From a virus, in IMG/VR virus record IMGVR_UViG_3300050821_001343, positions 35,182-99,181 of that record: a stretch of 64,000 nt of DNA. One strand, 5' to 3'. The translations under genes and the position numbers were made by a program. Every line of letters begins with the position of its first letter. The stretch's first letter is position 1. This document shows positions 1,328 to 63,135 of the stretch, piece after piece. The notes under the pieces were generated by a model, which was not told the origin of the DNA, searched no databases, and saw nothing but the letters and a program-made list of their open reading frames with translations.

Positions 1328-4300
1328 ATGCCAAACAGTCTATCCCTTGCTGGCGCACAACCCCAGAAACAACCCCGCTTTGCTCCGATTTTCACATCGA
1401 GGTTTTTCTCGGGTATATGGACAAATCGTAGTCCTCTTAGAGACGCAACTACCTCTCGTATTGTCGAAAAATTCTACGGCCAAGCCGGGGATGCCATCAT
1501 TGCCGGGACCAACATCGAGATTACGAATAAACTGACTTTTGCTCGCAGACCCGGCACTTCTGTGTATGATTCCAACAGCTATACGGACCCAGATCGGTAC
1601 TACGAGTTTCGTTTGTTCAACTCCACTACTGAACAGATTGATGTGATGATAGACCAAGCCAATGCTTTGTATTCTCTACATGGCGGCGTAAAGACATTGG
1701 TATTCACAAAGAGCACAGGCTCGGGACAGACTTACATGCAGTCTGTGGGCAACGAGTTATATTTTGCAGACGGTGTGGACAACAAGAAATGGCTTCAGAG
1801 TTTGTTCATTCGTTCCAACAGCACCTTGATCAACACAAACGTTAACCCATTCTTCACCACTTTCCTCATAGACCCGAACGGTAACATTCAACAGTTAACG
1901 GGATCATACGTTACGGCAAATGCTGTGAACTGGGGCGATGGCCTTCTTATCATCACTACTGACCAAACCAACTTGCTTACATCGGGAGTTGTAGCCGTTG
2001 GGGATAGCATCACCTTCCCTAATACTATGACTGCAACACAGTTGGAGGGGTTGACACTTGAAGTCACCGGAATAGCCGCCAACGAACTAGAGTTCTCTTA
2101 CATCAATTTGACAACTCCTACCTACAGTGGCGCAGAAAGTCACGTAGTTTTGGAGAACATTGGATCGGGAACTCCTACTACCGGATCAGGTACTCCAACG
2201 TGGAGCACAGTTGTACCTTCTCCGTCTAATAACTTTGCCGGTGGAGTCACACTTGATGGCTCGGCTCTCTGGACAAACAGAGGATTGCCGGTAGAGAATT
2301 GGGGAATTGATATAAGCAACGGCAAGCAATTGGCTAAACCATTGCCTGTTTCTCCGTCAGTCTCCGAAACCATTGCTGGTGGCAGTTCAAGTTCATCTCA
2401 AACTGGCCCCGGTTCAAATATTACATCTAATACTCTATCAGGTTTTGGATCATCACCTGTATCTGAAAACGTCACTTTGAATATGACGTTCAATGCGACC
2501 TCAACCTTCAACTTTACAGTATTGGCCGGTGGACCTGATCCTGCCAATTACGCACAGATACTTGTGTCTCCTGATGGCGGTGCGTCTTATATTTCTTTGT
2601 ATACGCAAACGTTTCAAACTCCATTTGGAGCAACTTCACCATACACAATCGCAGTGAGCAACATCCCGTTAAGCACGGTTCTATCCGGCGTGAGCAACTT
2701 GAATAACATTCAGGTCAAGATCATTACGGAATCTTTCGGAGCGAATGCAGGCGATGTGGCGAATTTTACTGTCACGCTTGGAGCTATCACTGTAGCAACG
2801 GGAAACAACGCATTACCATGGACCGCCAACACTGCATACAGCTTGGGTCAGGTTGTAATTGACAGCAACAACAACCTCCAAACCGTTACGGTAGCTGGTA
2901 TATCAGGACTAGTACAGCCAAATTGGAATACCATTCTAGGAGGTACGACGTTCGACAACTCTATAACTTGGGAGAATACATTCATCCAAGCCATCTCTGC
3001 ATTCAACGGCGGGTTTGAGTACAGCATTGCTCTCGTCAACAGTTTGGATGCAACCGTATCAAATGCTACTCCTTTGTCAGTGGCTACAGGCAACTTTGTT
3101 GGGGCTCAAGGTGTAGCAATTCCAGCAGGAGCCGGACTGCCTCCGTTGAGTCAGATTGACCCGCAAGCGGACTATGTGGATATTTTCAGAACAGTTGATG
3201 GCGGCTCTGTGCCGTTCTTAATTAACGGTCCCGGAAACTTTCCGTATACAATACCACTTGCTCAATACATTGCCGAGGGGTATGTAGATAATACTCTCGA
3301 CACTCAGTTGAACAATCAAATATCGGGAGCTATTGCTGGAGAGAACACTCCGCCCGGCATCGGAGCAATCAACCTTACGTATCACCTTAGCCGAATCTGG
3401 TACAGCATTGGAAATGTAGTCTACTGGACTACTGGGCCAGATACACCAGTCGGCAACGGAATCAACGGCACATCACCTTTGAACTTCGCCGCTATGCCAT
3501 CATTGGTCAAGAGAATTGTACCAACGACAAGCGGGGCACTCATCTTCACTGTGTCCGACGTGTATATCATTCAAGGAAACGGAACGACTAACAATCCAAT
3601 TCAAGGAGCATTACCATTGCTTCCGGGTATTGGACTGTTGAGCTACAATGCGTTGGATCAGAACGGACCGACTATTGGATTATTTACGACCGACAATCAG
3701 TTTATCATACTTGATCCCTCATCAGGAACAACGTATGCTGGATTTCCCATTGGCGATCAGCTAAGGCAGAATAACGGATCACCGGGCACAAGCTGGAATC
3801 CAGCCAATGTATATGTCGCATGGCATGTACAAGGCGAAGACCAAGCTTGGTATGTTTGTGACGGTACTAATGGATGGTACAGATTAATGTCCACACCGGC
3901 TCCTGAAAGCGGTTACACATGGTCGCCATTTGCAACCATCACAGGCGGGGCCGGTGCCGTGCAGAGCGTCGAGGTAACCCCCGGAGTTCATAGACTTCTC
4001 ATTGGACCCACGGGAACAGGTGAACTACTGCAACGAGATTTGACTGTGTTTACCGACAATGGAACAACCTATCCTGCTAACGCAACGATTGGCTCTCTAG
4101 TGCTGGCACAACCGGGTCAAGTAGCAGAAGTCGCTCACATTGTTTGCGAATCAGCCAAGGTCGGTGCCCCTGTAGAACTTGGATTCTTGACCGACGAGGC
4201 ATTTCCTTATTACACAGGACCGATTGATATTCTTAAGGAATGGACATCTGATCCTCCGAATTTGTCACCTAGCCAATCACTGTATAGTCAACGTTTCTAT

Positions 4301-4435
4301 TTAGCAAATATAGACGATGACGACGCAGCGGTGATGCGACATTGCCAAATTCAGATCATATTCTCACCTTATGATACTGTGCAAAATGAGATGCTAACCC
4401 TCACGGTTTTTGGGGCCTATTCGCAGGAGGTATAA
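1328..4435 (+). CDS. Large tail protein (tail nozzle-like)
   Basis: 1035 aa, with its ATG following the preceding TAA directly. The first 150 residues (an N-terminal Arg-rich segment, then RRPGTSVYDSN and a Tyr/Phe-rich beta region) resemble the N-terminus of podoviral tail tubular B/nozzle proteins, which start by describing lists of parameters in a beta-propeller. The middle (about 330-560) is Ser/Thr/Asn-rich and looks like an inserted beta-sandwich. No enzyme motif is visible. The gene order (tail protein, GNAT-like protein, internal virion proteins) fits a podovirus. Assignment as nozzle is inference. Confidence 0.6.
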   Translation: MPNSLSLAGAQPQKQPRFAPIFTSRFFSGIWTNRSPLRDATTSRIVEKFYGQAGDAIIAGTNIEITNKLTFARRPGTSVYDSNSYTDPDRYYEFRLFNSTTEQIDVMIDQANALYSLHGGVKTLVFTKSTGSGQTYMQSVGNELYFADGVDNKKWLQSLFIRSNSTLINTNVNPFFTTFLIDPNGNIQQLTGSYVTANAVNWGDGLLIITTDQTNLLTSGVVAVGDSITFPNTMTATQLEGLTLEVTGIAANELEFSYINLTTPTYSGAESHVVLENIGSGTPTTGSGTPTWSTVVPSPSNNFAGGVTLDGSALWTNRGLPVENWGIDISNGKQLAKPLPVSPSVSETIAGGSSSSSQTGPGSNITSNTLSGFGSSPVSENVTLNMTFNATSTFNFTVLAGGPDPANYAQILVSPDGGASYISLYTQTFQTPFGATSPYTIAVSNIPLSTVLSGVSNLNNIQVKIITESFGANAGDVANFTVTLGAITVATGNNALPWTANTAYSLGQVVIDSNNNLQTVTVAGISGLVQPNWNTILGGTTFDNSITWENTFIQAISAFNGGFEYSIALVNSLDATVSNATPLSVATGNFVGAQGVAIPAGAGLPPLSQIDPQADYVDIFRTVDGGSVPFLINGPGNFPYTIPLAQYIAEGYVDNTLDTQLNNQISGAIAGENTPPGIGAINLTYHLSRIWYSIGNVVYWTTGPDTPVGNGINGTSPLNFAAMPSLVKRIVPTTSGALIFTVSDVYIIQGNGTTNNPIQGALPLLPGIGLLSYNALDQNGPTIGLFTTDNQFIILDPSSGTTYAGFPIGDQLRQNNGSPGTSWNPANVYVAWHVQGEDQAWYVCDGTNGWYRLMSTPAPESGYTWSPFATITGGAGAVQSVEVTPGVHRLLIGPTGTGELLQRDLTVFTDNGTTYPANATIGSLVLAQPGQVAEVAHIVCESAKVGAPVELGFLTDEAFPYYTGPIDILKEWTSDPPNLSPSQSLYSQRFYLANIDDDDAAVMRHCQIQIIFSPYDTVQNEMLTLTVFGAYSQEV

Positions 4436-4438
4436 TCA

Positions 4439-5152
4439 ATGCCCGATTTAGCAAGTAGAACAGGTGTGGACCTTGATGGATATACTCCGATAGCTCCCGT
4501 CTCTGGATCACCAGTTCCGGCTCAAGGTACATCATCACCCAATACTGTTGAGCCGGGATTGAATCCATTTTTACGATGCCCAATACCTCCTATTTGGCAG
4601 TCATCACCAGATTCTTTGAGGCAGTTCTATCAGAACAATGTCGTTCCACAAACTAGATTGTTTAATCCTCCTCCGAATCAAAACGTATCTGTTGCCGCAG
4701 CCGCACCCGCTGCAAGCAATGTAACTAATGTTACTAACAACACAGTTGTCTCCGTAGCGGCTGCTCAGAATCCTAATTTGATTTCCAGTGACGGAACTAC
4801 AGGATCGCGTAGGTTTTTCCAAACTGCGAATCCAGAAACTACCGGCCCTACATCGAGTTATGTGTTTCAGAATTCCAATACCAGTCCCCTTTTAGTAGTT
4901 GTCTCTGCTGACGGCGGCGGCGGAGGATTTCACGGAGTAGTATATTGTGACATTACCACGACTCCCGTTACGAAAGTAGCACGACTATCTCGTGTCAACG
5001 CGGGGTCCAGTAATCCAAACTACTATCCCGGAAGCGTGATGTTTCTTGTTCCTGCTGGTTACTATTATGGGATCAGCGTGACAAGCGGCGGTGGCACGCC
5101 AGTCGGAGCTAATGCACTTGATTCATGGACTGAGTACACCCTTGGGAGTTAA
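4439..5152 (+). CDS. Tail/virion protein, unknown
   Basis: 237 aa, start behind GGAGGTATAATCA. The first 110 residues are Pro/Asn/Ala-rich and low complexity. The C-terminal 120 residues are a beta-rich domain with a run of five glycines near residue 160, like a small knob domain. It lies three bases after the large tail gene and its stop joins the next gene's ATG (TAAATG), so translation is probably coupled. Function unknown. Confidence 0.6.
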   Translation: MPDLASRTGVDLDGYTPIAPVSGSPVPAQGTSSPNTVEPGLNPFLRCPIPPIWQSSPDSLRQFYQNNVVPQTRLFNPPPNQNVSVAAAAPAASNVTNVTNNTVVSVAAAQNPNLISSDGTTGSRRFFQTANPETTGPTSSYVFQNSNTSPLLVVVSADGGGGGFHGVVYCDITTTPVTKVARLSRVNAGSSNPNYYPGSVMFLVPAGYYYGISVTSGGGTPVGANALDSWTEYTLGS

Positions 5153-5569
5153 ATGATTACCAACCGATTTATCACCGACAATGATTACTCTATTCTTGCT
5201 GGATCGTTGCTACTGGATGAGTATCACAAGGACACACCAGCCGGTTTCTTTTATGCAGACGGAACGGTTTGCTCTGTTTATGAAGACGAAAATGGTCCCA
5301 TTTGTTTTGTACGAGGAAAGCCCATTACACAAGACAAAGTGGCGATTATACAACTAGATATTCAATATGTCAACAATCGAGACGCTCGACGTAACATGAG
5401 AGCGATGCTTGAAGGATTACCAGAATTGGAAAAGAAAGCGCGTGAAAATGGTTTTTCTGGCTTTTTCTTTGTGAGTAATGTTCCTCTGCTTAGACAGTTT
5501 TGCATAAAGCGACTTGGATTCGAGGCTTATGGGGAAGATTGTCTGGTTAAAGTTTTGCAGGAGAAATAA
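5153..5569 (+). CDS. GNAT acyltransferase-like virion-region protein
   Basis: 138 aa. A central beta-strand/loop, a helix rich in Arg (RDARRNMRAML) and a C-terminal CIKRLGFEAYGED segment resemble the last strands of the GNAT fold (the 'lGF' motif). Podoviruses often encode such a protein just before the internal virion proteins. The acetyl-CoA loop (Q/RxxGxG/A) is not clear, so activity is doubtful and the protein may be structural. Its stop overlaps the next ATG (TAATG). Confidence 0.55.
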   Translation: MITNRFITDNDYSILAGSLLLDEYHKDTPAGFFYADGTVCSVYEDENGPICFVRGKPITQDKVAIIQLDIQYVNNRDARRNMRAMLEGLPELEKKARENGFSGFFFVSNVPLLRQFCIKRLGFEAYGEDCLVKVLQEK

Positions 5570-32401: not shown

Positions 32402-32617
32402 TCAATAGGCGTAGTCGTCGTGAATTTCTTTCTTTCGTGCTTCTTTCAAAACGGCTCGTTTGAACAGCCAGAGTAGAAACCGAGTCCACCGGGTTCCGTG
32501 ACATAGCGCCCTCGCACCTTTGTATTGAAACGAGTAACGAACTAGAAAAGCCGGGTCAGCTACAGAACCAAACAAGGGAACGTGAATTACATCCGGGTCA
32601 TGTTTTTGGTAGCTCAT
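32402..32617 (-). CDS. Hypothetical protein
   Basis: 71 aa, start overlapping the RNA ligase stop by 4 bases. Contains an amphipathic basic helix (LLWLFKRAVLKEARKKE). Not recognised. Confidence 0.55.
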   Translation of the reverse strand: MSYQKHDPDVIHVPLFGSVADPAFLVRYSFQYKGARALCHGTRWTRFLLWLFKRAVLKEARKKEIHDDYAY

Positions 32618-33825
32618 TTGCTATCCTTTTCTAGAAACTTATTCGATACGATTTTCAACTGCGCCCTACCTACTCCGCGCACATGACGTTCCGGGACAGA
32701 CTTAATGACTATGCCCTCACGGATATTGGTAGCACCTTTGACTTTCGACGGCCCATCTACAAGAGATTTGATCTTCTCAAGATCAAAGGGTCCTTGATAG
32801 AGAACAGGAACCGATCTACCAATTAACGATACTACTATATCCATGTAACGCTCATCTGTAGGGTCTAACCAGTTTCCATCTGGCTTTCTAATATCAAATG
32901 GGAAGAATTGTGGCTCCTTGCTGCCATATTCAAAGTTGCCTTGAGTGGGAGTAACTTCACCCCAAAGAACATAGCCCTCATTCACACGACACCATTCCTC
33001 GATCCATGGATTAGCTTTCAGCGCCTTCCTCCAGATGCAATTACTCGTTGGTGCTTTCCATAGTGTCCGTGATCCTGCATACATCACACCGTCAAGGAAG
33101 ATATATCGTGCATTACTTCCGTGAATCTTCTCAGTGACAATAACCGGCTCGTGTTCAGTAAACACGTTCGGGTAGTTCTTGAATGCATCTACATCGTAAA
33201 CCGGGATGCCAAGACTTACACTCTCTTCGGCTCCTCCAATCGCGTCATAGAATCCAAGCGCATTCTTTACGCGCCGGTAGATAAACTTGACCCATCCACG
33301 GACCGAACGTGGGTACTTACGCTTCAGCTTTGGTGCTCCGCTGTTGTCTCCTTTAGTTTCCTTTCCAGCATCCGGGTCGTAGTGAGTAATTCCCAACATA
33401 TTTGAAACGTCACCACCCGGTGCTAAGGACCAATACCCGGCACTTGGGTCCAATACCCACGAATAGCCATCTTTCTCATGGTCTATAGCCCAAAAATCGG
33501 TAACAGGTAGGAGAAGTCCTTCTGACCACTCTCCACGAAACTTGCGGACAGTAATACGTCTGCGCTTCTCTGGCACAACGAACGCCGCCGTTGAGTCTTC
33601 AGCAGGTACACACATATACGGTTCCCAAATGAACCGGAACGGCTCCGTTTGTGGGACAACGGAATCCGGCTGGATATACACAGCCAGATCGCCAACTTTA
33701 AACTGTCCGCTTTTGGACACCACTTGGTATTCCCCAATGGGGATAATATCTAGGGTATCTGCGTTGCCGTGCTTCAGCACTTCGGTGATCTTTACAATGT
33801 TAGCTTGATGGTTTGCTTTCGTCAT
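32614..33825 (-). CDS. RNA ligase, Rnl5-like (OB fold plus nucleotidyltransferase)
   Basis: 403 aa. The N-terminal 110 residues form an OB-type domain (VGDLAVYIQPDSVVP), as in Rnl5-type enzymes such as Deinococcus RnlA. The nucleotidyltransferase motif I is TEKIHGSNAR with the AMP-accepting Lys near 231; motif IV is REGIVIKSV and motif V KIVSNKF near the C-terminus. It seals RNA ends, probably nicks in tRNA or mRNA cut by host defences. A second, unrelated ligase is at 39797. Confidence 0.87.
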   Translation of the reverse strand: MTKANHQANIVKITEVLKHGNADTLDIIPIGEYQVVSKSGQFKVGDLAVYIQPDSVVPQTEPFRFIWEPYMCVPAEDSTAAFVVPEKRRRITVRKFRGEWSEGLLLPVTDFWAIDHEKDGYSWVLDPSAGYWSLAPGGDVSNMLGITHYDPDAGKETKGDNSGAPKLKRKYPRSVRGWVKFIYRRVKNALGFYDAIGGAEESVSLGIPVYDVDAFKNYPNVFTEHEPVIVTEKIHGSNARYIFLDGVMYAGSRTLWKAPTSNCIWRKALKANPWIEEWCRVNEGYVLWGEVTPTQGNFEYGSKEPQFFPFDIRKPDGNWLDPTDERYMDIVVSLIGRSVPVLYQGPFDLEKIKSLVDGPSKVKGATNIREGIVIKSVPERHVRGVGRAQLKIVSNKFLEKDSK

Positions 33826-39421: not shown

Positions 39422-39843
39422 TCATCCTCCTGTACTACAACAGGGGCATCATCTATTCCATCTGCCCTCTGGCCGGTGTTCTTTATGATCTGGATTGCCC
39501 GATCATCCCAAACGGCCACACAGCCGTAATCTTTTATACACGTCACAGGCAGCGAAGTACCAAAGACTTTCAACGACCATTTAGCTATTGCGTCCAGTGC
39601 TACGAGTCGCTTCTGAGGATCAGGCTCGGAGGCCCTTGCTGTAAAGATTTTTACAATCTTACCCTCAGCAAGCCACTGAAATACACGATTGACCATAGGA
39701 CCAATCGGTTCTCCGATATGCTCGTGTCCATGGAACGTATCGTATACGGCCAAAGTTCCGTCCAAATCGACTGCAATCCATGGGGCTAGGTAATCCTTAC
39801 CCAACCTTTGTGCTTTCCGTGCTTCCTTCTCGCTGTCCGTTAT
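39412..39843 (-). CDS. HAD-family phosphatase (polynucleotide 3'-phosphatase-like)
   Basis: 143 aa from ATG 39843 (SD AAAGGAACCC). DLDGTLAVYD near the N-terminus is the HAD motif I; IFTARASEPDPQKR supplies motif II; AVWDDRAIQI supplies the motif IV Asp pair. The latter segment and size resemble the phosphatase domain of T4 Pnkp. Its start lies inside the Rnl1-type ligase gene, so it may remove 3' phosphates before ligation. No kinase domain is attached. Confidence 0.75.
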   Translation of the reverse strand: MTDSEKEARKAQRLGKDYLAPWIAVDLDGTLAVYDTFHGHEHIGEPIGPMVNRVFQWLAEGKIVKIFTARASEPDPQKRLVALDAIAKWSLKVFGTSLPVTCIKDYGCVAVWDDRAIQIIKNTGQRADGIDDAPVVVQEDECR

Positions 39844-40810
39844 CATGGGTTCCTTTGTCGTAGTCCAGTAATGCAAAACATGTGGCTGTATACGGTTGGT
39901 TCTCTGGTTTCAGGAAGAACGCAGCAAATTCCTTCCGGCTAGTGCATGTTACTAGAGCGTCCTTGACAATCTCGGCGGCTCTGTTTCTGTGCGCCACTTC
40001 AATGCCGGGGTCCGGTAAATCTCGCAGGCGTTTCTGCTCGGCATAGAATTCCTTGCGGTTCTTGAGGAACGTAGGGAACTTTACTTTGAGTTTCAGGGGC
40101 ACAGTGCCGGGAATTCGGTATGAGACAACGTATCCTTCGGACTTGTTACTGTCTGCGTTTAGTGCATCCTTCAAGGAGAGATTGTTTATCTCTGCGGCCA
40201 TATCCAATTTGTTCTTGAAAGCATACTCGCTCACTATCCCCCCGTGAGCCTCTTCCCCTGTTTCAATGTTGATAAGGTCTAATAGGAACAGGCCGTCTTT
40301 AGGATATTTGATAACATGTGGCTGAATCTCTTGACAGATTATTTCGAACACCGGAGTATAACCATAGGGAAAGTCAATAAAGGCAGTCTGATCCAAATGA
40401 TTTTTCAACCATTGAGTAGCAAATTCAGCGTGCGGGGAATGGAATGATCCTTTAGTTGCGATCCCCCAGTGCTCTTTATAGCGCCACAGAATACCAAGAC
40501 ACCCGTTGATCTTCTCTGTGATAACTGGTGGGTTACCATTCGCCTCTTCAATCGCGGCTCTGTTTAACAAGTTTGGATACTGGTCGATGGAAAAGAATTT
40601 CTCATAAGGACGGGCAATGACATTTCCTTCGTCGTCTACAATCAAGCCTCGCGTGCGGCACGTAACGTCATCCCATACCTCATCATAAACTGCCCGTTTG
40701 CCGTAGCAGTAGATGGTTAAAGGTAGGGTGTTGTGTCGGCGTGCTGTGACAAGTCCACTAGTAACATACCAGCGGAGTTTGTCAACGTCAATGTAGTCAG
40801 AGAGTCTCAT
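39797..40810 (-). CDS. rnlA: RNA ligase 1 (T4 Rnl1-like)
   Basis: 337 aa, near the T4 Rnl1 length (374). The adenylated Lys is in TEKINGCLG (about 98; Lys99 in T4), with RTRGLIVDD upstream, VFEIICQ (motif IIIa) and SEGYVVSYR / LKLKVKFPTF (motifs IV and V). It joins 5'-phosphate to 3'-hydroxyl RNA ends, classically to mend tRNA anticodon loops. It overlaps the HAD gene by 47 bases. Confidence 0.88.
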   Translation of the reverse strand: MRLSDYIDVDKLRWYVTSGLVTARRHNTLPLTIYCYGKRAVYDEVWDDVTCRTRGLIVDDEGNVIARPYEKFFSIDQYPNLLNRAAIEEANGNPPVITEKINGCLGILWRYKEHWGIATKGSFHSPHAEFATQWLKNHLDQTAFIDFPYGYTPVFEIICQEIQPHVIKYPKDGLFLLDLINIETGEEAHGGIVSEYAFKNKLDMAAEINNLSLKDALNADSNKSEGYVVSYRIPGTVPLKLKVKFPTFLKNRKEFYAEQKRLRDLPDPGIEVAHRNRAAEIVKDALVTCTSRKEFAAFFLKPENQPYTATCFALLDYDKGTHDNGQREGSTESTKVG

Positions 40811-41498: not shown

Positions 41499-42358
41499 TA
41501 AATCGTTATCTCCTGATCTGGCCCAACGTACTCACCTTCGACTACACCGTTCTCGATGCTCTCTTGAGCGGATTCGACTTCGGCTTCTGCTGCGGCCTGT
41601 GCTCTCTGTTGCTCTTTCTTCTCTTTAGATGCAATGTATTGCAAAAAGATTGCACCAAATTGCTCTCTTTCTTCAGGAGTGACAAAACGAAAGTCACTAA
41701 ACACGGGTACATAAGATACGAACTTTCCCGTGGTGATCAGCTTCGTTGTAAGCTTGAACTTCACATCGAAAATGTTCGGCTTAACACCCTCGGCTTCCTT
41801 CATCCACAGGATGCGCGTTAGATTCTGCATCCCGGCTTCGAAGTTCTGCTTCGCCTTGGACCGAATGAACATCTGCAACGGCATCTTGTACTTCGAATCA
41901 ATCAGAAGTGCCCGGTAGTGAGCATCACATGGAGGGATCAGGGCCTTGTTGGTCTGCCCATTGTTCTTTTCCTTGTACTCCCTCCACTGTGTCCAGTCCT
42001 GTCTTGCGCAGTTTGCACAATTCACGGCCTGCGGAATACGTGCCTTGGGATGTGGCACCTTCATGTCAGTGCTAAAGCACATCAGGTTCTCTGGTGTACG
42101 ATTCAGTTCTCCGGGGTTGCCAATGTGATATTGACGCTGCTCGGTCGGGTCTACTAGGAGTGTACACCACATCTCCTCGAATTGATCCCCTGTTTCAACG
42201 ATTCTCAGGTTTCCTTTAATGGCACCTTCAACTTGACTATTTGGTTGAACAATTGCTAGATTGGCTGGTTTCAGTTCGAACAGCGGATTGTTCCGGTTCA
42301 TTCCCAGACCGCCTGCCTGAATTGACGCATTGTTCAAAACGGTTAGTTCACTCGACAT
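41498..42358 (-). CDS. Zinc-binding phage protein, unknown
   Basis: 286 aa from ATG 42358 (SD AAGGAGAAC). A Cys cluster at about 100-145 (MCFSTD, NCANCARQDW, PPCDAHYR) can bind zinc; the C-terminal 30 residues are acidic and Gln/Glu-rich, as in ssDNA-binding proteins. It sits directly downstream of the PD-(D/E)XK nuclease, where a recombination-associated or ssDNA-binding role would fit. Not proven. Confidence 0.6.
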   Translation of the reverse strand: MSSELTVLNNASIQAGGLGMNRNNPLFELKPANLAIVQPNSQVEGAIKGNLRIVETGDQFEEMWCTLLVDPTEQRQYHIGNPGELNRTPENLMCFSTDMKVPHPKARIPQAVNCANCARQDWTQWREYKEKNNGQTNKALIPPCDAHYRALLIDSKYKMPLQMFIRSKAKQNFEAGMQNLTRILWMKEAEGVKPNIFDVKFKLTTKLITTGKFVSYVPVFSDFRFVTPEEREQFGAIFLQYIASKEKKEQQRAQAAAEAEVESAQESIENGVVEGEYVGPDQEITI

Positions 42359-51482: not shown

Positions 51483-52243
51483 TCGGTCCCCCTAAACCTT
51501 CGTCCTGTAAAGTATTCTGCGGTTGCGGTTTTAGAAGTAGCTTCTTTCTGCCTCTTCCACTCTGCGAACTCTTTGATTTCGTCTAACACTGAGATTGAAT
51601 GCTCGGTGGTTGCTGCGAGTGCTCCGTCCGTTAGACTGCCGGTGTCCGGCCATTCCCCTGTGATTGGGTTGTAGCCGTCCTCGTAGCTCTCACTTAATGA
51701 TCCCGCATTTTCGTACTTGTATTGACCTTCCGGTATCCACGTAGCAGGATGGGGTTTAGGGTATACACCCTCGACTGGTACAAACCATGCAGAAGAAAAT
51801 GTGCTCACATAACCTTTGAGCCTAATCCGTAGTAATTGATCCCCGTAGCTATTCTTCTGATCTTCGATTCCAAGGACTATTAGGTATTCATCTTTCGGAG
51901 AATAAGTCCACTTAGAAAGCGAACCATCCGTTCGTACGAAATCTCTGGGCAGTACAGCTTGTCCAACGGTGAATGTATGTCTAGTCGGTGTGACCTCGAC
52001 TGGCACAAACCATTCCTCAGAAAACTCTGCTAGAGAGCCGTTTATTTTGATTCTCAGTATATCATAACCCCTTGAGTTAGCCTCATTAAGAATTTCAAGT
52101 ACCGTAAAGGTTTCAGTCTTTGGCCCAAACTGCCACTCCATGAATATAGTACCATCCTCATCGAGCACATTAACGGGCCGCACAGTATCACCCACCTTAA
52201 ATCGGTGCTTCTCTGTCTGTCCTTTAATGCTACTATTTGGCAT
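51479..52243 (-). CDS. Two-repeat SH3-like protein with TGRRFR C-terminus
   Basis: 254 aa from ATG 52243 (AAGGAG 7 bases upstream). Residues about 12-80 and 82-150 are two copies of one domain: FKVGDTVRP...FTVLEI...LRIKINGS..WFVPVE and FTVGQAVLP...LIVLGI...LRIRLKGY..WFVPVE. These look like SH3/KOW-type barrels. A linker and a helix follow, ending TGRRFRGTE. Function unknown. Confidence 0.65.
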   Translation of the reverse strand: MPNSSIKGQTEKHRFKVGDTVRPVNVLDEDGTIFMEWQFGPKTETFTVLEILNEANSRGYDILRIKINGSLAEFSEEWFVPVEVTPTRHTFTVGQAVLPRDFVRTDGSLSKWTYSPKDEYLIVLGIEDQKNSYGDQLLRIRLKGYVSTFSSAWFVPVEGVYPKPHPATWIPEGQYKYENAGSLSESYEDGYNPITGEWPDTGSLTDGALAATTEHSISVLDEIKEFAEWKRQKEATSKTATAEYFTGRRFRGTE

Positions 52244-52406
52244 TGTCGAACTCCTTGGCAAGTTTGCGAAGTACCAAAACGATTACTACTGCTAGCAAGC
52301 CTAGCTCAATATGCTGCCATCTGTGCGTCCCAAACAAGGCCAGCACTAGCTGAATACTGGCATACAGTTTGCAGCACGCGATCCCATAGCCGTCAAGCTT
52401 GCTCAT
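52233..52406 (-). CDS. Small membrane protein
   Basis: 57 aa from ATG 52406 (SD AAGGAGAAAAAG). Hydrophobic centre (IELGLLAVVIVLVLRKLAK). Overlaps neighbours at both ends. Confidence 0.6.
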   Translation of the reverse strand: MSKLDGYGIACCKLYASIQLVLALFGTHRWQHIELGLLAVVIVLVLRKLAKEFDNAK

Positions 52407-52558
52407 AAACTTTTTCTCCTTAACATACGGAGATAGAGCCAATATAGCCCTTTGGAATATCCTCGATTATACTGGCGCAATGCTTTAGCCGTATGCTGCT
52501 CGGTGCGCTGTGTATCCCCGTGCAATCCGTCAATGTACCCTCTTCTCCAAGGTGTCAT
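52403..52558 (-). CDS. 51-aa basic protein, Rmf-like pattern
   Basis: ATG 52558, SD GGAGAAAGAG, stop overlapping the next ATG (ATGA). RRGYIDGLHGD and YNRGYSKGLYW repeat a GYxxG pattern seen in ribosome-modulation-factor-like phage proteins. The SD abuts the 3' arm of the structured RNA. Confidence 0.65.
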   Translation of the reverse strand: MTPWRRGYIDGLHGDTQRTEQHTAKALRQYNRGYSKGLYWLYLRMLRRKSL

Positions 52559-52723
52559 AATTTCTCTTTCTCCAATCGTGAGAGCTAGTAGCGGAGAACC
52601 GCTCTCTCAATATCCCTAGCGTCTTGCTCTGGGCCATTACTACACGGGCTTACCGTGGGTCATGGCATCCAATGCTGCTAGAGACTAGCTCTCACGATTA
52701 GGGCACTCTCGTGCCCCGTTCGT
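52559..52723 (-). ncRNA. Structured intergenic RNA element (unknown class)
   Basis: A 165-base non-coding gap in an otherwise gapless operon. In the minus-strand RNA: a GGGCAC-GAGA-GTGCCC hairpin; then a perfect 16-bp outer stem (AATCGTGAGAGCTAGT, paired with ACTAGCTCTCACGATT; arms at 52574-52589 and 52684-52699). Inside are CTAGC/GCTAG, GCCAT/ATGGC enclosing CACGG/CCGTG, and an AGCGG-TTCT-CCGCT hairpin. The outer stem ends directly before the SD of the next gene, so it could control its translation, be cut by RNase III, or be a separate RNA. I do not recognise a known riboswitch or ribozyme core. Confidence 0.7.
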
Positions 52724-52885
52724 TTACATCATACGCAGATACTTTCGCGTTGCGTGTGTGGCCTGCTCGTGTGGCATGTGCCGATGGAAGACCGCGTGGA
52801 CGTTGTGGAAAACGGCCTGCATACTGTCCATTCCTGCTTTGACGGCCTTGGTCAGTTGGCCTTTGAGTGCGGGAGTCATCTTCAC
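52724..52885 (-). CDS. 53-aa protein, His-rich
   Basis: GTG 52885 overlaps the upstream TGA (GTGA), AAGGAG 9 bases before it. Sequence rich in His, Met and Ala (FHNVHAVFHRHMPHEQ). Not recognised. Its stop is followed at once by the structured RNA. Confidence 0.6.
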   Translation of the reverse strand: MKMTPALKGQLTKAVKAGMDSMQAVFHNVHAVFHRHMPHEQATHATRKYLRMM

Positions 52886-53088
52886 AGGCACAGGCTCCTT
52901 GCGAGGGATGTATCCGCCTCGGGGGTTTCCAGTTGTTTGTGGAAGGTTACAGTCCGAGTGACTTCGACCAGTGTGCGCGTTGTCAGATCGGACCAGTTAA
53001 TGGCCTCTATGAAGCGGAGAGCATTTGCACGCTTCTCTGCGTCCATCTCTTCTTGGGTAAGTTTTGGAGTACCAGTAATACTGTCCAT
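52882..53088 (-). CDS. Hypothetical protein
   Basis: 68 aa, helical (TQEEMDAEKRANALRFIEA). Not recognised. Confidence 0.55.
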   Translation of the reverse strand: MDSITGTPKLTQEEMDAEKRANALRFIEAINWSDLTTRTLVEVTRTVTFHKQLETPEADTSLARSLCL

Positions 53089-53391: not shown

Positions 53392-53592
53392 TTAGACTGC
53401 CTCCTGCTTGGCAAGGTGCGCTTTACGCCAAGCTTTGAACGGTGGTTTTCTTGCTGGTGAGAGTTTACGCATACGTGGGGCTTTGTATTGCCGTGTACGC
53501 ATGGTCGGCTCGTTGTCGATACGATCCCACATTCCTGCAAATGTTTCTGCCAGAGTGGAGTCTGTCGGCATTGGCTCGTGATGGTCTGTCAT
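53392..53592 (-). CDS. Small basic protein
   Basis: 66 aa from AT-start 53592 (ATG; SD GAAAGG). Acidic N-terminus and a basic C-terminal half (APRMRKLSPARKPPFKAWRK). Probably nucleic-acid binding. Confidence 0.6.
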   Translation of the reverse strand: MTDHHEPMPTDSTLAETFAGMWDRIDNEPTMRTRQYKAPRMRKLSPARKPPFKAWRKAHLAKQEAV

Positions 53593-53761
53593 TTGTAACC
53601 TTTCTGTAGCAAGTGCGCTACTGCAAAAGATTGGACTATAGCCCCATCGCTTGCAGTAAGGCACCTAGCCTACTGGGAGAGTCATTAACTCTCCTGTTGC
53701 ATAAGTCCTCCCGCGTATCTGATACGGTTGAACTACCCTGCCCGGTTCCGCCTACCAGTCC
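53593..53761 (-). other. Structured non-coding gap with a CGTATC palindrome
   Basis: 169 bases between two operon genes. Minus-strand hairpins: GGAGAG-TTAATGA-CTCTCC, GTAGC-GCACTT-GCTAC (53606-53621), CTGCAA...TTGCAG, and the palindrome CGTATC-N-GATACG (53714-53726). It may be RNA structure, an operator, or tRNA remnants (AGTAGCGCAC also occurs at 46746-46843). Confidence 0.45.
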
Positions 53762-54115
53762 CTAGTTAATCAGGGAATCTGGCAATCCTTCAATCGACCC
53801 ACCTTGGCCGATGGTGTCATCGCCATCGGAATAGCCACTTTCGGCTTGAAGCTTCTGCGCCTGTTCGAGCAAACTGCCGTCTGCAATCCCACTGATGATC
53901 CGTGCGGTGATGTACAGGGTAAAAGCTGCCTCGGCAACCACACTCGTACCGATGCCGTTTTCTACAAGCTTGTCATGGAATGCGGCCAGAGTCTTGGAAA
54001 GTTGGACCGCTTCGGCTTCGAGTGCGATCAATTTCTCGGTCACATCTGCGGCGGTTTCCTGCTTCACAGGCTCGTTACTCTCCGGGTTTCCCGGCACTGC
54101 GTTTGGATTGTCCAC
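53762..54115 (-). CDS. Hypothetical protein
   Basis: 117 aa. Disordered start, central helices (TEKLIALEAEAVQLSKTL), Gly/Asp-rich end. Not recognised. Confidence 0.55.
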   Translation of the reverse strand: MDNPNAVPGNPESNEPVKQETAADVTEKLIALEAEAVQLSKTLAAFHDKLVENGIGTSVVAEAAFTLYITARIISGIADGSLLEQAQKLQAESGYSDGDDTIGQGGSIEGLPDSLIN

Positions 54116-54821: not shown

Positions 54822-54980
54822 GTCATCCGGGGTAATTTCAGGTGATCCTGCAAACCCCTGTACAGGGAGTCTAAAAACGGCCTATACGTGACTCACATTT
54901 GACATGTAGCGCGTCCCCGTGCATCACTTGGGACCTAGATACCCCGGAATCAACCTACCCCGGAAAGAATGCGGGCGATA

Positions 54981-54995
54981 GCGTATTTAATACGC
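54981..54995. promoter_or_regulatory. Palindrome GCGTATT-T-AATACGC
   Basis: Perfect 7-bp arms around one base, in the 255-base non-coding stretch 54822-55076. Related to the palindromes at 53714 and 59393. Candidate operator. The rest of the stretch holds only the terminator at its right end. Confidence 0.5.
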
Positions 54996-55026
54996 ACGGG
55001 CTTTTTAGGATCACTAGCAGGCAGGC

Positions 55027-55057
55027 AAAAAAAAAGCCCCCGGACGAATCCGGGGGG
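55027..55057 (-). terminator. Strong rho-independent terminator
   Basis: Minus strand CCCCCGGA-TTCG-TCCGGGGG followed by C and nine T. Ends the 60725-55077 transcription unit. Confidence 0.93.
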
Positions 55058-55076
55058 TAAGGCCGTACACTTGCGT

Positions 55077-56161: not shown

Positions 56162-56494
56162 TTATAGAAAATATGCCTCAAGATATGCAATCTCCGCGTC
56201 TATGGCCTGTGACCTGTCCTTGTAAACTTCCGGTAAAATTGGCCCGTCAATAGGCGATAGATTCACTCTCCACAGGCAAGACCATGCGCGGGTAGACTCT
56301 GTAACCTTTCCGTACTCCCCAAACACGGCACGGGCCATATAAAAGGCTAGACGGGGCATCAGGCTAACAGGCTCTACATGTGAGGCCCGTTTAATTACGC
56401 TTGTCTCATCCAAGAAACAAGCGGAAAGCCCGTTAACTAAGAAACGGGCTTCGCCTGTGCTGTCATCAATCGAGATTGTTATGCGTTCAGTCAT
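56162..56494 (-). CDS. DUF2997-like N-terminus with extra domain
   Basis: 110 aa from ATG 56494. The first 18 residues (TERITISIDDSTGEARF) match the DUF2997-type start of the 57086-57277 protein, and the DNA there is nearly identical over about 25 bases. The remaining 90 residues are unrelated, helical and Cys-containing. It may be a duplicated and fused copy. Confidence 0.6.
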   Translation of the reverse strand: MTERITISIDDSTGEARFLVNGLSACFLDETSVIKRASHVEPVSLMPRLAFYMARAVFGEYGKVTESTRAWSCLWRVNLSPIDGPILPEVYKDRSQAIDAEIAYLEAYFL

Positions 56495-56505
56495 GACTGC
56501 CCTTT

Positions 56506-60861: not shown

Positions 60862-61317
60862 GTGCCAGCACATCTAATAGACATGGGAGAATCACGAAAA
60901 TTATGTGCGGTATGTAATCGTCCGGTGTCCCGGATTCTAAAGAAACAAAGCAAGCTTTGCAAGTCATGTACCGATTATGTTCGCACCATCGGTATTAAAT
61001 ACGGTGTCACTCTTGATCGTTATTTATGGTTCTTAGAAAAACAAAAACGGCGATGCGCCATATGCGGGCTGTTAGATCATGAATGCGGCTCAAGGAATCG
61101 CCGTGGGTTAGTTGTAGATCACTGCCACGTGACAAATATAGTACGCGGTTTAATCTGTCAGCCCTGTAATACATTACTCGGGGGCGCTAAAGACAATGTG
61201 ATTGTTTTACAGAGTGCAATTGATTACCTAAATGCTCCAACTAATCAATTAGTTTCGGGTCAAATTTTACTCGAATTTGATGAAAATGAATATAAGTTGT
61301 TTATAATCAATAGCTAA
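60862..61317 (+). CDS. Endonuclease VII-like HNH nuclease
   Basis: 151 aa from GTG 60862, or 144 from ATG 60883; neither has a good SD. Cys pairs CAVCNRP, CKSCTD and CAICGLLDH, the catalytic GLVVDHCHVTNIVRGLIC, and CQPCNTLLGGAKD are the endonuclease VII signature. It has an extra N-terminal zinc ribbon. It is the only + strand gene here, which suggests a mobile homing-type gene. Confidence 0.85.
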   Translation: MPAHLIDMGESRKLCAVCNRPVSRILKKQSKLCKSCTDYVRTIGIKYGVTLDRYLWFLEKQKRRCAICGLLDHECGSRNRRGLVVDHCHVTNIVRGLICQPCNTLLGGAKDNVIVLQSAIDYLNAPTNQLVSGQILLEFDENEYKLFIINS

Positions 61318-61530
61318 ATCGCTTTACTAAATTTTTGAATTTCATCTAGGACGCGCTGCAAGCCCCATGTACAGGTCATTACACGGCTAAATTCACTACG
61401 GACAAGGTAAAGCGATTTACCGACCAAATCCGTTTTTAGTAATCAATTAGTAAACTTTTCCTGTAATCTATTGATATTAAACGAGTTAACAGGTGATACA
61501 AAACCCCGCTAGTAAATCGCTTTACTAAAT
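61315..61530. repeat. Three copies of palindrome GTAAATCGCTTTAC
   Basis: The 18-mer TAAATCGCTTTACTAAAT occurs exactly at 61315-61332 and 61513-61530; an inverted copy of its core (GTAAAGCGATTTAC) is at 61407-61420. The first includes the TAA of the upstream gene. In AT-rich non-coding DNA (61318-61773) with further TTAGT/ACTAA clusters. Candidate origin or regulator-binding iterons. Confidence 0.7.
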
Positions 61531-62353: not shown

Positions 62354-62855
62354 AGTGCCTGCGAGTTATCCGCCTGCGTATTGTTTACGTGTCCCCAGTG
62401 GCCCGGTATCGCGTCCAAGGTCATCCAAGCATATAGGAGAGCTAGAACGGCCTGCCAAGCCTTACACAAGCCTTATAAACGTATTGTTTACGCGGCCTCA
62501 CTAGTCGAGCATAGCGCCCCACAGCATAGCATATATAAGAGAGAATGCATAAAGGTCGTAACAGGCTTGTAACAGGCTTGTAACGTATACAATACACTTA
62601 TGTACTAACTACGCTCGGGTGATGGTCAGGCAATTAAAAATTATCAACTAATTTATTAGTTTGACGCTGCTATCCATTTCGTATTCATTACATGATAATG
62701 GATACTCGGAGGGTAACCCTCCATTTAATCAATAACTTACGGCCAGATCGAATTACAGCACACGTGTGCATACTGCATGAACAAAGGCGATAGGCCCTAA
62801 ACAGGTCACGCACGCGGATGCAACCCGTTTAGAATCAAAAGGATGCAAACCAACC

Positions 62856-62907
62856 CTGCCTTTGCCACGACGCGGCAGAGTCCGCCCACCCTTCCCTGCA
62901 AAGGCAG
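62856..62907. repeat. 10-bp inverted repeat in the non-coding region
   Basis: CTGCCTTTGC (62856-62865) and GCAAAGGCAG (62898-62907) with a G+C-rich 32-base loop. The stretch 62354-63135 has no gene I can support, only this, the CGTATTGTTTAC copies and the hairpin below. Confidence 0.6.
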
Positions 62908-62981
62908 CGCAGGACCCGGCCAGCAAACGGACAGCTAGTTAACAGATATGGGACCCATCTACTAATAGATTAGTTGATACG

Positions 62982-63030
62982 TGGGACCCCTATTCTAATA
63001 GGTTTAAGTCCTATATAGGGTCCCATTTTT
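62982..63030 (+). terminator. Long hairpin with T tract
   Basis: TGGGACCCCTAT pairs with ATAGGGTCCCA (one bulged C) and is followed by TTTTT. A further GGGACCC copy lies upstream at 62950-62956. A tandem TCCGGGAAAGG pair follows (from 63032). Acts as a terminator or structured RNA. Confidence 0.6.
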
Positions 63031-63135
63031 GTCCGGGAAAGGTCCGGGAAAGGTGGTATGTTAGTTTTATGCTAGATTTGGGAGGGTATTTAGACCTTTG
63101 TGGCAGGTTTTATATAGGACATTACAATAAAAACC

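Follow-up and report, generated by a model that had tools for sequence, protein, structure and literature searches.

The 165-base gap 52559-52723 between two small genes encodes a multi-stem structure on the minus strand of the viral DNA analysed here, a stretch of 64,000 nucleotides (the window) taken from a viral record of 99,181 bases. As predicted by folding, the structure is real and striking, and by sequence comparison the element is an orphan among the sequences searched. With a probability of roughly one in two, it is proposed to be a cis-acting structured leader in phage mRNA, or a processing or stability element; a cis-acting mRNA element is favoured over a trans-acting RNA. If the element alone is real, it represents one more structured phage leader and, for phages of a bacterial phylum that has received little study, offers a manageable system in which to examine message processing. 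Judged by the AAA ATPase, the best annotated relative of the phage is Tunturiibacter phage Tunturi_3 (40.6% identical), whose host is acidobacterial, and closer relatives are IMG/VR contigs (46-56% identical). The window phage infects soil bacteria, and its host is probably acidobacterial as well.

Architecture, stability and context of the element

Read along the minus strand, a 55-aa gene (52724..52891) ends in its stop codon, after which come 6 bases, hairpin 1, the outer stem P1, a GGAG motif and the ATG of a 51-aa gene (52403..52558). Hairpin 1 (52717-52700), which begins 6 nt past the stop codon and lacks a U-tract on the minus strand, consists of 7 bp and a GAGA loop with a mean pair probability of 0.93. 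It is directly abutted by P1, in which the 5′ arm AATCGTGAGAGCTAGT (52699-52684, mean pair probability 0.94) pairs with the 3′ arm at 52589-52574; the 16-nt arms match at 100% and enclose an interior of 94 nt. Within this interior, the long interrupted helix P2 (52614..52683, mean pair probability 0.95-1.0) is composed of the segments 52683-52677/52620-52614 and 52675-52653/52647-52626, and the 5-bp hairpin P3 (AGCGG-UUCU-CCGCU, 52590..52603, mean pair probability 0.98) adjoins the 3′ arm of P1. The GGAG at 52573-52570, a likely Shine-Dalgarno sequence (SD), touches the end of P1 and is located 11 nt ahead of the ATG at 52558. The first-pass annotation had described a hairpin and a perfect 16-bp outer stem around a branched interior, with the outer stem ending against the SD of the 51-aa gene; the former was recovered in the sequence, the inverted-repeat listing and the predicted fold, and the latter is borne out by the contact between GGAG and P1. 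Since P1 is made up of Watson-Crick pairs only, its sequence leaves the strand undecided, and the direction of the genes is the reason for preferring the minus strand.

The folding energy of the element was -72.8 kcal/mol (z -7.6) on the plus strand and -74.7 kcal/mol (z -6.9) on the minus strand, and none of 200 shuffles on each strand was as stable. In a scan of both strands of the window in segments of 165 bases with a step of 30 bases, the element ranked first in GC-corrected energy among 4256 segments. When the window was simulated 200 times with a Markov model, one copy contained a perfect inverted repeat of at least 16 bp with a spacer of at most 160 bases.

The 51-aa gene, for which neither a known family nor a relative was found, overlaps by 4 bases with the next gene (52233..52406, minus strand, 57 aa from the likely ATG), whose product, by eye, looks like a small membrane protein. 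The gap had been described as free of coding, and its non-coding nature is confirmed: no minus-strand ORF of at least 40 aa lies within 52559-52723. From the opposite strand, a 55-aa ORF (52452-52619) extends into it. The description as a gapless operon applies to the immediate neighbours, which overlap their own neighbours, but not to the wider region: nine gaps of more than 40 bases were counted between 47 and 60 kb with the gene starts chosen in this analysis, on which the count depends, including gaps of 170 bases (53592-53761) and 255 bases (54822-55076), and one of the nine contains a strong predicted terminator (55056-55037). The 170-base gap, in the same gene row, is also structured on the minus strand; its long imperfect hairpin precedes the SD of an ATG near 53591 (z -3.66 for 53580-53765). 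That the window holds another structured gap before an SD counts toward reading the element as a cis-acting leader.

Homologue searches and elements of the same build

In Rfam 15, no family matched the element at the gathering threshold or at E<=10; the sole match at E<=10 was a chance hit of a CRISPR repeat (E 2) outside the element. Neither ARAGORN nor Rfam detected a tRNA or tmRNA at the element, in agreement with the first-pass annotation, which had recognised no known riboswitch, ribozyme or tRNA. The element resembles the riboswitch, ribozyme and leader families of Rfam in its position as a structured leader and differs from them in matching none. The covariance search that had been suggested, with a model built from the element (R1), recovered only the element itself; being derived from a single sequence (effective number 0.49), R1 is weak and of low sensitivity. 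In 41 and 58 sequence sources it returned the element and a weak reverse-strand self-match, the remaining matches being at chance level (12-13 bits, E>7). R1 found nothing at E<=10 in 73 further distinct viral records (sets of 29-30, 22 and 23 selected loci, with G002 in two sets). In 14 bacterial genomes there was no match at E<=1, nor was there any at E<=0.1 in 150 genomes belonging to a single acidobacterial order; the two bacterial sets partly overlap and comprise about 160 acidobacterial genomes in total.

Searches by blastn against the phage collection, with a 5-kb stretch and with the element alone, yielded only chance matches of at most 29 bases. The exact 16-mer of the P1 arm matched four viral contigs, in every one of which the second arm is absent, and an exact search with an 18-mer of the inner hairpin gave no match. 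Relatives of the upstream 55-aa gene were found at four distant loci (L006-L009) and at L010, and no similar element was present in the 3′ flanks of the relatives at L006-L009. For the neighbouring 185-aa and 260-aa genes, as for the 51-aa gene, no relatives were found, nor were any found in genomes for the 334-aa gene. Of the earlier description as an unclassified RNA, the multi-stem, non-coding and Rfam-negative element is confirmed; its standing as a conserved RNA, with no homologue found and hence no covariation, or as a discrete RNA is unsupported.

Elements of the same build were identified in a survey of perfect inverted repeats (arms of at least 12 bp, spacers of 20-160 bases) covering 705,217 bases in 11 records of the group. 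Counting identical-core repeats from overlapping stretches once, 26 were obtained, and those with arms of at least 14 bp (16 of 26) were followed up; the Markov expectation for such arms was a mean of 0.5 in 12 simulations. From one locus set of the analysis, L007 was omitted, its contig being that of L128. Genes with conserved counterparts in other phages contain five of the 16, and 11 lie outside such genes. Among the latter, three are operator-like repeated near-palindromes (window 61407; L188 8195 and 8233), and five, in the window and in the records G029, G007, G004 and G030, share the build of the window element, namely a perfect stem of 14-24 bp and an interior of 46-109 bases ahead of a short gene, with unrelated sequences. 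In G029, a 24-bp stem with a 50-nt interior is directly followed by GGAG, and a promoter-like box is found 83 nt upstream. The end of the 19-bp stem of G007 (109-nt interior) overlaps the SD. The G004 element, with a 14-bp stem and a 46-nt interior, begins 5 nt after a TTGACA-17-TACAAT box and has its SD 3 nt after the stem. In G030, the 14-bp stem reaches 22 bp with further and G-U pairs, and the SD is situated about 15 nt after it.

The G030 element occurs in two homologous copies before homologous genes, and their stems begin 8-9 nt after -10-like boxes. Pairing of the outer stem is kept across one two-sided and four one-sided changes, with three pairs broken. For 39 pairs compared across the two copies, 96.2% of cells show standard pairing, compared with 31-41% in slid versions; the shuffle control (255/500) is uninformative with two sequences only. 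In 40 sources, a covariance model of the pair matched only these two places, on both strands. In pairwise comparisons of the window element with five same-build elements, three were no better than shuffles, and the similarity reached p 0.022 (L012) and 0.052 (L013), both uncorrected. The arms of L163 carry GTGAGAGC in the register of the window element (p 0.02-0.67, depending on gap costs). Taken as sequence resemblance, this is not convincing.

The occurrence of the same build at mRNA 5′ leaders in relatives points to an element acting in cis on its mRNA and not to an independent class of RNA. In an automated test, the stem end was adjacent to an SD in 4 of the 26 repeats, a weak excess over about 1.5 expected at the random rate; the stems of G007 and G030 were not flagged by this test. 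That leaders behind promoters are generally structured in this group was unsupported: overall, 232 promoter-linked leaders had a mean z of 0.10 and no more structure than random stretches. A broader reading, which we consider rather unlikely, is that the group uses private, fast-replaced closed-stem leaders, each phage having its own long perfect stem and folded interior immediately before the SD of short genes, that new stems would arise by template switching with the architecture kept and not the sequence, and that the window element would be an intercistronic instance. If so, these phages would retain a regulatory RNA shape and discard its sequence, and homology-based RNA discovery would miss such elements.

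A proposed leader role and its alternatives

As gene order suggests, the element would be co-transcribed with the gene row on the minus strand. Hairpin 1 would then form the end of the 55-aa gene's message, and the closed stem with its branched interior would serve the 51-aa gene and those that follow as their 5′ leader. P1 would set the 5′ boundary and the lifetime of the downstream message and may in this way affect expression. One option is that P1 would block decay from the 5′ side; the other is that it would be cut by a double-stranded-RNA nuclease, for which RNase III is the natural candidate, and that after cutting the downstream genes would receive their own, separately stable message. 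The SD directly behind P1 would remain outside the helix.

The leader reading is supported by the location of the element between a stop codon and an SD along the direction of the gene row, and by its exceptional stability. In G004 and G030 (three copies) the stems start near the expected RNA 5′ end, which suggests 5′-end protection there. Unlike in G004, G029 and G030, no promoter of at least 9/12 was found ahead of the window element (best 8/12), so that its 5′ end would need processing. On the predicted fold, P1 is plausible as a substrate of a double-strand nuclease, and the 16-bp P1 together with the adjoining 7-bp P2 segment forms a long regular duplex as in RNase III sites. No intrinsic terminator was detected on the minus strand at the element; the sole terminator-like match was hairpin 1 on the plus strand. 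Translation control by a stem that frees the SD was considered and dropped: predicted SD accessibility was 0.71 with the element intact and 0.25 with the element deleted in a first context, but with a shorter upstream context it was 0.37 for the intact element, and 120 shuffles were as accessible (mean 0.39, with 52.5% at least equal).

Two known systems are comparable. Stem-loops of the ompA type at the 5′ terminus stabilise mRNA. The likeness consists in a stem at or near the 5′ end of the message with the SD just after it, and the G004 and G030 elements begin about where transcription should start, whereas the window element lacks a recognisable promoter ahead of it and has a longer, branched and closed fold and a putative stability effect. 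In phages such as T7, intercistronic hairpins are processed by RNase III. The window element has in common with these a long double-stranded stem between two phage genes on one presumed transcript; it differs in its 94-nt branched interior, in a probably acidobacterial host and in that cleavage is putative.

That the element gives rise to a separate small phage RNA, cut out of the operon transcript within P1 and acting in trans on host or phage RNA or protein, is judged unlikely. Such an RNA would fit the compact closed fold, in which every helix has high pair probabilities, and the non-coding nature of the element, which has the strongest fold in the window. However, the viral and acidobacterial sequences searched yielded no homologue, the element has neither its own promoter (best 8/12) nor a U-tract terminator on the minus strand, and its tight position against the SD suits a leader better.

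Perfect inverted repeats are known to arise by template switching in replication, and P1 could be a young mutational product, later put to use or not. That it is a relic without selected function is a serious rival reading, judged unlikely. The excess of 16 repeats over the Markov mean in the survey would agree with such an origin, as would the five repeats inside conserved genes, where the case for a selected RNA function is more difficult to make, and an earlier sample with 15 repeats in 217 kb from close relatives, none in 236 kb of the middle set, 14 in 1.23 Mb of distant and 9 in 1.14 Mb of bacterial sequence. The first-order Markov model, however, understates repeats, and three of the four sets of the earlier sample exceed it (at least 14 bp, spacer 20-160). 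Furthermore, 11 of the 16 repeats lie outside conserved genes, in DNA that seemingly makes up little of the genome, several are located at leaders ahead of SDs, and a simple stem-making event would not account for the fold inside the window element. Homologues to which the five coding cases were compared gave no sign of which arm is derived.

Given its perfect terminal inverted repeats, the element might also act at the DNA level, as a miniature mobile element or as a recombination or replication site, but this is very improbable, as it is single-copy in the 99-kb record, shows no flanking target duplication by eye, and has its arm matched exactly in four viral contigs without the second arm. 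A ligand-binding riboswitch or ribozyme controlling the small genes, for which the three-way junction in the branched interior and the leader position would speak, is very unlikely in view of the missing Rfam match at E<=10, the lack of detected conservation, the absence of a minus-strand U-tract terminator and the unsupported sequestration of the SD.

Further observations in the phage group

The excess of perfect inverted repeats of at least 14 bp derives from the stretches L177-L210 and the window. Perfect 16-bp and 14-bp inverted repeats were observed in L127 (12257-12393 and 11378-11520) in an orthologue of a conserved 126-aa gene and in the AAA gene; in the window, the 126-aa gene has strong predicted structure at 56300-56500 (minus strand, z -4.48). 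The region 62690-63060 of the window is structured and apparently non-coding (z -3.30 on the minus strand). In a gene-poor stretch of the window, the near-palindrome TAAATCGCTTTAC / GTAAAGCGATTTAC occurs at 61315-61327, 61407-61420 and 61512-61525; it is common to the relative L012 (8586-8734) and, from its sequence, looks like a set of repressor operators. Promoter-like TTGACA boxes precede orthologous genes upstream of 42358 in the window (minus strand), at L184 5335-5468 and upstream of 453 in L198, the L184 and L198 orthologues being 70-72% identical to the window gene at 42358. In G006 and G004, the leader is closed by stems of the types GGGGUAGCG/CGCUACCCC and GGGGCAGCGG/CUGCUGCCCC.

In the literature searched, no description of such closed-stem leaders was recognised, which does not prove their absence. 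The main text of the Tunturi_3 paper mentions tRNA genes and contains none of the terms non-coding, noncoding, riboswitch, promoter or hairpin (PMC11924767). In Tunturi_3 (PP885686), locus L045 includes a 1.66-kb stretch without annotated features (3717-5376), and ARAGORN found neither tRNA nor tmRNA in L045. The window itself carries eight tRNA genes according to ARAGORN and two different RNA ligases (39797-40810 and 32614-33825; Pfam RNA_lig_T4_1 and RNA_ligase). Two-piece tmRNAs have been reported in phages, mostly marine or aquatic ones (PMC9004378). A phage-encoded permuted two-piece tmRNA was found in record G030 (IMGVR_UViG_3300048502_000040) at L189 2330-2744, with 79 bits for Rfam RF04321 (cut-off 47) and an ARAGORN assignment as tmRNA* with the tag ATKSVGSRIASFVKGLFSFDGFAIPVLA.
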